Assembly (NCBI RefSeq): GCF_024464185.1
Contig: NZ_JANHAU010000002.1
Location: 124,001 to 188,000 of the forward strand
Direction: 5' to 3'
Source of the DNA: Haloarchaeobius salinus
GTDB lineage: Archaea; Halobacteriota; Halobacteria; Halobacteriales; Natrialbaceae
DNA: 64,000 nt
The notes under the pieces are model-generated. The model made no database searches and had not been told where the DNA came from. It saw only the letters and a program-made list of their open reading frames with translations. Both the position numbers and the translations under genes were made by a program. How positions within the stretch are numbered: the first letter of the stretch is position 1; every line of letters begins with the position of its first letter. Below are positions 25,928 to 28,103 of the stretch, piece after piece.

Positions 25928-26155
25928 TCAGTCCACCACGAGTCGGTACACGACCGCTGTGTCTGTCGTTCGCGATTCTCGGATGATCTTCACCACGTCA
26001 CCCATCTCCGCCTCGTCTGGGAGCGCCGGGTCGGTGCGCTTGATCTTCGGAAGGTCCGTCCTGTCGATGTCGTACTCGTCGAGCACGTCGCCGAGCTCGT
26101 CCTCGTCGAGGACGACGTGCTCCGGCACGAGTTCGTGTTGGCTTACGTCTACCAT
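25928..26155 (-). CDS. rpoH: DNA-directed RNA polymerase subunit H (Rpo5)
   Basis: The 75-aa protein is the archaeal homologue of the C-terminal domain of eukaryotic Rpb5, with [13 protein letters not shown]...[11 protein letters not shown] and the C-terminal [11 protein letters not shown]...YRLVVD. It assembles at the jaw of RNA polymerase. It is the promoter-proximal gene of rpoH-B2-B1-A1-A2-nusA. The ATG is overlapped by a short upstream GTG frame (26149-26190). Confidence 0.95.
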
Positions 26156-26220
26156 GGTTGTGTCTGACCGGAGAGAGAAGCTGCTGTCACGAGATACTAC
26201 AGGGCACTACCGGCGGGAGG

Positions 26221-26229
26221 CATTTAACG
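26221..26229 (-). promoter_or_regulatory. TATA-like box for the RNA polymerase operon
   Basis: ACGTTAAAT on the minus strand is the only A/T-rich box in the 280 bp between rpoH and the tRNA. Standard spacing puts the transcription start near 26199, giving a leader of about 45 nt, longer than for most genes in this window. The leader includes a 13-codon GTG frame that overlaps the rpoH ATG. Confidence 0.5.
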
Positions 26230-26432
26230 TTTGCCAAGTACGCGCGCGAGCTTCCGCTATCGGTGCCCGCCTCGGCGGCGGGTGCGAACCCGCGGTCGGG
26301 ACGACGCGAACGATCTCAGTTTCGTCCTGACGATTGCGCTACGACCCTAAAGCGTTTGTGCCGCGGTGGACACACGCACACGTCCGCCGATTGGAAAGCC
26401 TTAAGCGTACAACCCGGGTACGATAGGGTGAA

Positions 26433-26505
26433 GCCCGGGTGGTGTAGTGGCCCATCATACGACCCTGTCACGGTCGTGACGCGGGTTCAAATCCCGCCTC
26501 GGGCG
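26433..26505 (+). tRNA. tRNA-Asp (GTC), copy 1
   Basis: The 73-nt gene folds into a full cloverleaf: acceptor GCCCGGG pairs with CTCGGGC (one G-U), discriminator G, anticodon loop CTGTCAC with GTC at 26467-26469 in a 5-bp stem, and T-arm GGGTTCAAATCCC. CCA is not encoded. An A/T box 'ccttaagcg' about 30-35 nt upstream could be its promoter. It is identical to copy 2. Confidence 0.96.
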
Positions 26506-26639
26506 TATTCTGCTGGCGCAACCGAACGAGGGGCGCTAGCGACGAGTGAGTCCGCGCCAGCGAATCGCCGCGAAGGGATTTGAACTAGCGAGCACGCAGC
26601 GAGGACCGTGCGAGTGAAGTTCAGATCCCGCCTCGGGCG
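26506..26639 (+). repeat. Hairpin-rich unit ending in a tRNA-Asp 3'-end copy (unit 1)
   Basis: This 134-bp unit directly follows tRNA-Asp copy 1. It contains a hairpin with an 8-bp stem (GCTGGCGC/GCGCCAGC), a conserved loop core GCGCTAGCGACGA, then GGGATTTGAAC (26575-26585), which pairs with GTTCAGATCCC. It ends in gttcagatcccgcctcgggc (from 26619), a near copy of the tRNA T-arm and 3' acceptor half. Unit 2 after the second tRNA has the same plan. Confidence 0.75.
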
Positions 26640-26719
26640 CTTCGCTTTCTCCTCTTCGAGCGAGACGTCGCTCTCATCGACGGCCAACAGTTCAAATCGA
26701 ATGCCGACCCAACGCCGGC

Positions 26720-27139
26720 GTGAATCCCTCCCGACGTGGCGACGAGACCGAAGCAGTTCTCCTCGCGCGACTTCTCGACCGTGGTTGTTCCGTCGCTGTC
26801 CCGTTCGGCGACAGCGACCGGTACGACCTGCTCGTCGACGACGACGGCGACCTGTTCCGGGTGCAGTGCAAGACCGGGAGCTGGGTGAACGGGACGGTAC
26901 GGTTCAAATTGTACAGTTCGACAGTGGCTGACGGAGAGCGCGTCGACACCGTTTACACCGCTGACGAGGTGGACGCGTACGCTGTGTACTCCTCGGAGAC
27001 CGATACGGCGTACTGGGTGCCCCTCTCGGAAACCGGGAGCGGCGAGATGCGATTGCGCGTCGAGGAACCGGAGGCGAAGGCACCGCGGTCACGTCTGAAC
27101 TGGGCGAGCGAGTACCTGCTGTCCGAACGATTCGATTGA
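26720..27139 (+). CDS. PD-(D/E)XK endonuclease-like protein (PDDEXK_5 type)
   Basis: The 139-aa protein matches the small nuclease family often called group I intron-associated PD-(D/E)XK: Glu11 in GDETEA, Asp36 in RYDLLVD, and the QxK version of the (D/E)XK motif in RVQCKTG (Gln49, Lys51), followed by SEYLL near the end. The GTG start fits a TATA-like 'ttcaaat' 27 nt upstream. It lies between two identical tRNA-Asp genes. No intron is visible, so its target is unknown; a selfish or recombination role at the tRNA is possible. Confidence 0.78.
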   Translation: MNPSRRGDETEAVLLARLLDRGCSVAVPFGDSDRYDLLVDDDGDLFRVQCKTGSWVNGTVRFKLYSSTVADGERVDTVYTADEVDAYAVYSSETDTAYWVPLSETGSGEMRLRVEEPEAKAPRSRLNWASEYLLSERFD

Positions 27140-27206
27140 CGAGGGGTATCGGTCCGAATCGACACCGATTAATAAGTCCAGCCGGAACGAGGAGATGCGT
27201 TCGAAG

Positions 27207-27279
27207 GCCCGGGTGGTGTAGTGGCCCATCATACGACCCTGTCACGGTCGTGACGCGGGTTCAAATCCCGCCTCGGGCG
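27207..27279 (+). tRNA. tRNA-Asp (GTC), copy 2
   Basis: Identical over all 73 nt to the copy at 26433-26505, with GTC anticodon at 27241-27243. The upstream sequence differs (A/T-rich 'gattaataagtcc', 27168-27180), so each copy has its own promoter. No CCA is encoded. Confidence 0.96.
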
Positions 27280-27414
27280 CTTTCTCAGCGGACAACGTGA
27301 GTGAGGAGCGCTAGCGACGAACGAACCGTCTGCTGAGAAACGCCACGAAGGGATTTGAACTAGCGAGCACGCAGCGATGACCGTGCGAGTGAAGTTCAGA
27401 TCCCGCCTCGGGCG
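27280..27414 (+). repeat. Hairpin-rich unit ending in a tRNA-Asp 3'-end copy (unit 2)
   Basis: 135 bp, same plan as unit 1. Its outer hairpin uses a different stem sequence (TTTCTCAGCGGAC pairing with GTCTGCTGAGAAA, one mismatch), the same loop core GCGCTAGCGACGA, then GGGATTTGAAC at 27350-27360 and the tRNA-like ending from 27394 to 27414. Confidence 0.75.
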
Positions 27415-27500
27415 GCTTCTGCTGGCGCGACTGAACGTGGAGCGCCAGCGAGGTGTGTCTGCGCCAGCAAATCACAGGAATCTGAAACAGCGAGCGGGCG
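27415..27500 (+). repeat. Degenerate third hairpin unit
   Basis: Directly after unit 2 comes a third hairpin (TGCTGGCGC ... GCGCCAGCA) with loop core GAGCGCCAGCGA and a weak remnant of the GGGATTTGAAC segment ('ggaatctgaaac'). No tRNA-like ending is recognisable. It looks like an older, decayed copy. Confidence 0.5.
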
Positions 27501-27556
27501 CTGGTCGGGGCACGTACGGAGGGAGTTCGCGTCGGGCGCGCGAACGCGTCAGGGAA

Positions 27557-27970
27557 TCACTGCTGGTCGGCGCTTCGCTCCGCCCAGATACGCCAGTCGC
27601 CACCGTCGGTGCGGAGCTCGTAGACGAGGGAGTACGAATCCGACCGCTCGCCGTCCGGTCCGGTGACGGTGAGGTCGACGCGGACCTCGGCCACGTCGTC
27701 GTCCGAGGTGAGCACCTCGGTGTCGTCGATACTGATGTCGACCTCGGCACTCTCGGAGGTGGACCCCTCGGTCACCTCCTGGCCGGGTGTCTCGGGATGG
27801 AGGAGTTCGTTCGCGCGTTCGTGGTTGCCGGCGTCGAGTGCCTCGATGAAGGCGACCGTTGTCGCCTCGGGGTCGTCGCCGGCCCCGTCACCGCCGCCGA
27901 GGAGTCCGGTACAGCCGGCGAGTGCGGTCAGTGAGAGTGTACTCGCGGTCAGGTAGGTCCGTCGTCGCAT
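27557..27970 (-). CDS. Small lipoprotein, NTF2-like/DUF4878-like fold likely
   Basis: 137 aa. The N-terminus MRRRTYLTASTLSLTALAGC gives a lipobox with Cys20, so membrane-anchored on the outside. After a Gly/Asp linker the domain starts with TTVAFIEALDAGNHERANEL and ends with VYELRTDGGDWRIW, the pattern of DUF4878/NTF2-like lumazine-binding lipoproteins that often bind small ligands. No ligand can be named. The start codon was chosen by the signal peptide; frames that begin earlier add an implausible extension. Confidence 0.75.
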   Translation of the reverse strand: MRRRTYLTASTLSLTALAGCTGLLGGGDGAGDDPEATTVAFIEALDAGNHERANELLHPETPGQEVTEGSTSESAEVDISIDDTEVLTSDDDVAEVRVDLTVTGPDGERSDSYSLVYELRTDGGDWRIWAERSADQQ

Positions 27971-28103
27971 GTGGATTCGGTCGGCAGGGAGTGACAAAAG
28001 TGTACGTATTCTATCCTGTTCGCCGGTCACCGATACCGAGCGCCAGTGCCCGCCGGCCGGGTTGACTCTAATCCTTTAGTACCCCTGCGACGTAACGGGG
28101 GGC

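Follow-up and report, generated by a model that had tools for sequence, protein, structure and literature searches.

A small PDDEXK_5 nuclease gene of Haloarchaeobius salinus, found in a 64,000-nucleotide stretch of contig NZ_JANHAU010000002.1 (positions 124,001 to 188,000; hereafter the window), probably encodes a free-standing homing endonuclease whose cleavage site lies in the anticodon arm of the neighbouring tRNA gene, hosts being spared by compensatory stem alleles or introns. On balance, and with more reserve, we also favour a wider proposal, in which free-standing PDDEXK_5 nucleases act as drivers of tRNA-gene evolution in haloarchaea: each clade would cut the anticodon arm of one tRNA gene, hosts would escape through compensatory stem changes or intron gain, and the spread of introns would be promoted from outside the introns themselves.

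The tRNA-Asp locus and its nuclease

An earlier note on this DNA, made from the letters alone, had described two identical tRNA-Asp genes flanking a PDDEXK_5 gene, each tRNA being followed by a hairpin unit of about 134 bp that ends in a copy of the tRNA 3′ end, with different regions upstream of the two copies and no integrase. All of these points were borne out (Table 1): the genes were recovered with ARAGORN, Rfam and PF11645, and no integrase was seen among the ORFs near the locus. Upstream, on the other strand, lie rpoH and RNA polymerase genes, and downstream there are a small gene that weakly matches SnoaL/DUF4440 and one for a large regulator, judged from sequence reading to be of the GAF/PAS type. 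An Rfam scan of positions 26100-28000 found no group I intron, and the nuclease gene lies outside the tRNA.

Table 1. Features of the tRNA-Asp locus, numbered from the first letter of the window.
Feature	Position	Strand	Remarks
tRNA-Asp(GTC) gene 1	26433..26505	+	ARAGORN, Rfam
Anticodon arm of tRNA-Asp 1 (CGACC CTGTCAC GGTCG)	26460..26476	+	Proposed cut region
Base pair of tRNA-Asp 1, canonical 28:42	26461:26475	+	G-C here; tracks nuclease clade
Unit 1 (hairpin A + hairpin B, ends in tRNA-Asp 3′ end copy)	26506..26639	+	
PDDEXK_5 nuclease, 139 aa	26720..27139	+	GTG start; clade Asp-c; E11, D36, Q49, K51 intact
tRNA-Asp(GTC) gene 2	27207..27279	+	Identical to gene 1; ARAGORN, Rfam
Anticodon arm of tRNA-Asp 2	27234..27250	+	Clade-linked G-C pair 27235:27249
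Unit 2	27280..27413	+	88% identical to unit 1
Degenerate third unit	~27415..27560 (approximate ends)	+	Tandem to unit 2

The window nuclease matched the PF11645 (PDDEXK_5) family with an E-value of 3.3e-37 (128 bits; cut-off 26.1) and, by profile, the structure of I-Ssp6803I (PDB 2OST; E 8e-14). Its AlphaFold model (pLDDT 90) returned 2ost_A-D as the top four Foldseek matches, with E-values down to 5e-10 and TM-scores up to 0.76. The catalytic D and Q-x-K residues (D36, Q49 and K51) are present and align with those of 2OST; across 18 relatives E11, D36 and Q49 are invariant and K51 nearly so. In sequence and predicted structure, the protein is related to the homing endonuclease I-Ssp6803I, and it is intact. 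The archaeal Hjc Holliday-junction resolvases, members of the same PD-(D/E)XK superfamily, came next after 2OST in the Foldseek search and are weaker structural matches to the window nuclease; to our knowledge, they are not linked to tRNA genes. Intact nucleases gave dN/dS values of 0.06-0.24 (about 0.1 between close species of the window's own genus), and the nuclease is under purifying selection.

A second PDDEXK_5 gene of the same genome (L113; G000:C1:182400-186000) lies about 140 bp behind tRNA-Pro(tgg) and combines two nuclease-like domains in one ORF, the second domain having no catalytic motif. This two-domain form was also seen at other tRNA-Pro loci.

Association with tRNA genes and turnover

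Among 121 distinct haloarchaeal relatives, for which tRNAs were called in 1.5-kb flanks, 118 have a same-strand tRNA gene no more than 1.5 kb away, upstream in 114 and just downstream in four; three have none and no antisense case was found. The 114 upstream genes are tRNA-Asp (76), Pro (18), Lys (10), Asn (9) and Gly (1), the Lys and some of the Asn genes having required intron-aware calling, with confirmation by Rfam. In a named genome set, 69 of 70 relatives agreed with this adjacency. A same-strand upstream tRNA is expected by chance in about 1% of cases (57 tRNA hits in 3.85 Mb), and for comparison a tRNA was called within 1.5 kb at 10 of 30 control HNH loci, counting any side or strand and including some doubtful calls. 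On the nuclease tree the identity of the neighbouring tRNA changes 10 times, versus 43 for shuffled labels: the Lys and the Asn nucleases each make up a single supported clade, and the Asp nucleases fall into three groups (a, b and c), the window nuclease belonging to c.

Viral relatives, from haloviruses and enterobacterial phages, also occur in tRNA regions. The distance from the preceding tRNA-Asn is 2 bp in HSTV-4 and 23 bp in Klebsiella phage FKP10, and the relative in Salmonella phage SM5 likewise lies in a tRNA region; three IMG/VR viral loci had no credible tRNA within the stretch examined. An ARAGORN intron call had suggested that the nuclease of the viral contig L311 is intron-encoded, and this was not borne out, Rfam finding no tRNA there. 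The Salmonella phage protein retrieved no relatives when used as the query of a viral scan, PLSDB gave no match that would indicate plasmid carriage, and all hits outside the order but in the same phylum fell below the cut-off.

Within the order, PF11645 is present in 143 of 293 genomes and some copies contain internal stops. The tRNA-Asp locus is syntenic across the family (rpoH upstream in 20/20 loci checked), and in five Haloarchaeobius genomes the two tRNA-Asp genes enclose a nuclease of clade c. At the equivalent place, with syntenic flanks, genome G270 carries a clade-b nuclease that is 44% identical to that of the window; its left flank shares 97% identity with the one in G261, a member of the same GTDB genus as the window genome. 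In another genus, G169 has the nuclease and G134 a clean empty site, with flank identities of 96% and 89%. A 15-bp direct repeat, CAGGGCACAGCCGAC, bounds the insert in G169 and is represented in G134 by a single copy, CAGGGCACGGCCGAC. Patchy presence, an empty site and replacement at the same locus, by which we recognise a free-standing homing endonuclease, were all found. Together with the tRNA adjacency and the clade-tracking tRNA allele described below, they support the earlier view of a selfish nuclease lying beside its likely target. At one further locus (L295 in G279), a short cold-shock-protein-like ORF separates the nuclease from the second tRNA-Asp gene.

A host-serving role, in which the nuclease would guard tRNA genes by cutting tRNA-integrating elements or resolving hairpin-unit junctions and would be kept by ordinary selection, would agree with the purifying selection on the protein, with the Hjc resolvases standing next to 2OST among its structural matches and with the use of tRNA genes as a common integration target in archaea (PMC8371274). 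We nevertheless consider it unlikely, since about half of the genomes have no copy, stop-containing copies exist, clades have been swapped at one locus, the altered part of the tRNA gene is the anticodon region and not the 3′ end, and hairpin units occur without the nuclease.

Anticodon-arm alleles and introns beside the nucleases

By analogy with I-Ssp6803I, which is cited as targeting the anticodon region of tRNA-fMet (PMC1995217), and from the sequence comparisons below, we infer that the nuclease cleaves the anticodon arm of the tRNA gene. It would recognise the near-palindromic arm of tRNA-Asp and cut DNA carrying a sensitive tRNA allele; repair from a nuclease-bearing donor would then copy the nuclease, its flanks and the linked tRNA allele, and the host would escape self-cutting through an altered arm or an intron in that linked tRNA. 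In tRNA-Asp and tRNA-Pro a compensatory base-pair change would alter both half-sites and leave the tRNA functional, and in tRNA-Lys, tRNA-Arg and many tRNA-Asn genes a short archaeal intron at 37/38 would split the site. That a stem-pair change hits both halves of the palindrome and keeps the tRNA paired fits a symmetric nuclease.

For tRNA-Asp, the pair scored (gene columns 29:43, canonical 28:42) is A-T in 42 of 44 hosts of clade-b nucleases and G-C in 17/18 clade-a and 14/14 clade-c hosts (allele vs. clade, Fisher p 2e-18). The clade-a exception, L065, has a nuclease with a TAG stop, and those of clade b are L076, the most basal member and 1158 bp away from its tRNA, and L152, which carries a third allele. 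All ten genera that contain both b and a/c nucleases were concordant (10/10; sign test 0.002), a linkage that is consistent, at the level of sequence, with copying by repair and co-conversion of the flanks. Both alleles occur in nuclease-free genomes. Mixed tRNA-Asp alleles were found in only three genomes (G164, G145 and G181), none of them with a clearly intact Asp nuclease.

The association of allele with clade could arise without immunity because the two are physically linked and co-inherited as one haplotype. A selfish gene might accordingly rest near tRNAs as a hitch-hiker, with its cut site elsewhere near the locus: Asp nucleases lie 76-1158 bp from their tRNA, a spacing over which co-conversion would carry both, and the G169 insert is downstream of the tRNA and outside the proposed cut site, so that insertion itself would not destroy that site. 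This account has, in our judgement, little probability, slightly less than the host-serving one. Among the hosts of clades a, b and c, only the anticodon-stem pair 28:42 follows the nuclease clade, and variants in the acceptor stem of that tRNA show no such pattern; the introns found with the Lys, Arg and Asn clades likewise sit in the anticodon loop; and the anticodon region is the target reported for the characterised member of the family (PMC1995217). Linkage alone could explain the allele association, but would not easily account for changes being confined, in several tRNAs, to the anticodon arm.

In tRNA-Pro, the consensus stem CGGGC was present in 0/11 genomes with the nuclease and in 49/103 without it (within-family permutation p 2.5e-4). 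In this sample CGGGC is found in each of the 19 further members of the window's family, and the window genome, which bears the Pro-linked nuclease L113, has CAGCG; its tRNA-Pro differs outside the anticodon arm too.

Introns at 37/38 were found beside the nuclease in tRNA-Lys (10/10), tRNA-Arg(tct) (2/2) and tRNA-Asn (seven loci), the Lys and Arg counts being taken at nuclease-adjacent loci. In four genomes that share a GTDB genus, Lys nuclease and Lys intron occur together. In the window genome the tRNA genes for Lys, Arg(tct) and Asn are intronless, and in Haloferax volcanii, where a control search did not find PF11645, tRNA introns are confined to Trp, Met and Gln (PMC7714728). The stem of tRNA-Asn occurs as CCTGG, CCACG, CCTCG, CTCCG and CGTGG among 94 genomes; it also varies in genomes in which no Asn-linked nuclease was found, and some Asn-nuclease hosts have neither an intron nor a special stem.

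The route by which archaeal tRNAs gain introns has been described as unknown (PMC4090602). Nuclease clades that each go with a single tRNA, and with an intron or a changed stem precisely in its anticodon arm, reduce that question to a simple cleavage test. If true, the proposed cleavage would show a selfish nuclease using an essential gene as its target, and paired changes in a palindromic stem that preserve the tRNA yet change both DNA half-sites.

I-Ssp6803I shares with the window nuclease a PF11645-like sequence, the fold, the catalytic D and Q-x-K and a link to a tRNA gene and to its anticodon region. It differs in being encoded by the group I intron of Synechocystis tRNA-fMet, a location that is a feature of I-Ssp6803I itself and not of the whole PF11645 family, whereas the window nuclease is archaeal and free-standing beside its tRNA; here, stem alleles or short archaeal introns would take the place of the group I intron, and several tRNAs would be targeted according to clade. 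The closest parallels to the haloarchaeal nuclease are SegB (PMC13096335) and collaborative homing (PMC3984707). SegB, a GIY-YIG enzyme of T-even phages, is likewise free-standing, lies beside tRNA genes and is reported to cut within them; it is, however, a phage gene of an unrelated nuclease family that cuts more widely, at 83 sites of the T6 genome, and it is not known to have tRNA alleles tied to nuclease clades. In collaborative homing, the nuclease is encoded outside the intron and its site is the intron insertion site, as would hold here for Lys, Arg and Asn, but the present introns are short, archaeal, protein-spliced tRNA introns and not group I ribozymes. Our literature search, in which subscription journals were thinly covered, found no paper describing the nuclease-tRNA association, and its novelty is provisional.

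HNH genes were observed beside tRNA-Gln(ttg), which has an anticodon-loop intron of 30-32 nt in 4/5 cases, and, within the same set of loci (L331-L334, L329 and L327), another HNH gene adjoins an intron-bearing tRNA-Glu call; they are possibly a second tRNA-linked homing family. A cluster of about 12 unusual tRNA genes in the window genome (L115; G000:C2:921692-925779) has a virus-like look.

Hairpin units behind tRNA genes

The two complete units of the window align with 88% identity over 112 nt and share one architecture: a GC-rich hairpin is followed by an inverted T-arm copy, a loop and GTTCAGATCCCGCCTCGGGCG, which in each unit equals the tRNA 3′ end with one mismatch. Both fold better than shuffled sequences (z -3.2 and -7.0). 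In the window genome a tRNA's own 3′ end recurs downstream in 16 of 62 tRNA calls (≤4 mismatches; about 17 of the 62 calls sit in one tRNA cluster), compared with 4% when each tRNA was searched against the region downstream of a different one, and most copies are offset by 77-177 bp. Units occur there behind tRNA-Glu, Met, Leu, Arg, Gly, Lys and others, and behind the first four of these the tRNA's own 3′ end again follows the inverted T-arm. They also stand behind tRNA-Asp in the nuclease-free genomes G036, G117, G134 and G087 and were found at 0/17 tRNA-Pro loci, at most of which the nuclease is present. The hairpin/3′-end units are a separate, widespread trailer feature of haloarchaeal tRNA genes.

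The earlier note had gone further and taken tRNA, hairpin unit and nuclease for a minimal selfish unit that moves as one and duplicates tRNA ends. Units do flank the nuclease in the window and in G261, and a 3′-end copy is found at many tRNA-Asp loci of the order, but units and nuclease are separable both ways, which contradicts this reading and leaves it highly improbable. Units as a component of the nuclease element were rejected on account of their presence behind other tRNAs and in nuclease-free genomes and by their absence from the tRNA-Pro loci. Duplication of tRNA-Asp by the nuclease was discarded as well, the gene being present in one to four copies irrespective of the nuclease, and because of this independence the joint loss of the nuclease, one tRNA-Asp and one unit that the note had envisaged was not seen. 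As to what the note would have held against its own view, two unit-bearing tRNA-Asp genes without a nuclease do exist (for example in G117), and the nuclease is rare in unrelated contexts.

In haloarchaea, integration into a tRNA gene is usually marked by copies of the tRNA 3′ end (PMC3119063), and the copies at this locus might be read as decayed attR remnants with the nuclease as leftover cargo. We give this no more credence than the joint element, since the short offsets and the same two-hairpin design recur at many tRNAs, no integrase lies nearby and the nuclease keeps its place next to tRNAs in different families. A tRNA-integrating element with a tyrosine recombinase was likewise rejected, there being no nearby integrase ORF and the 3′-end copies being separable from the nuclease.

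Many haloarchaeal tRNA genes, among them L004, L006, L008, L009 and others of the window genome, precede two-hairpin units that close with a copy of the respective tRNA's own 3′ end. Behind tRNA-Asp in other genomes the units form tandem arrays, sometimes with differing hairpins (L082, L053 and G087).
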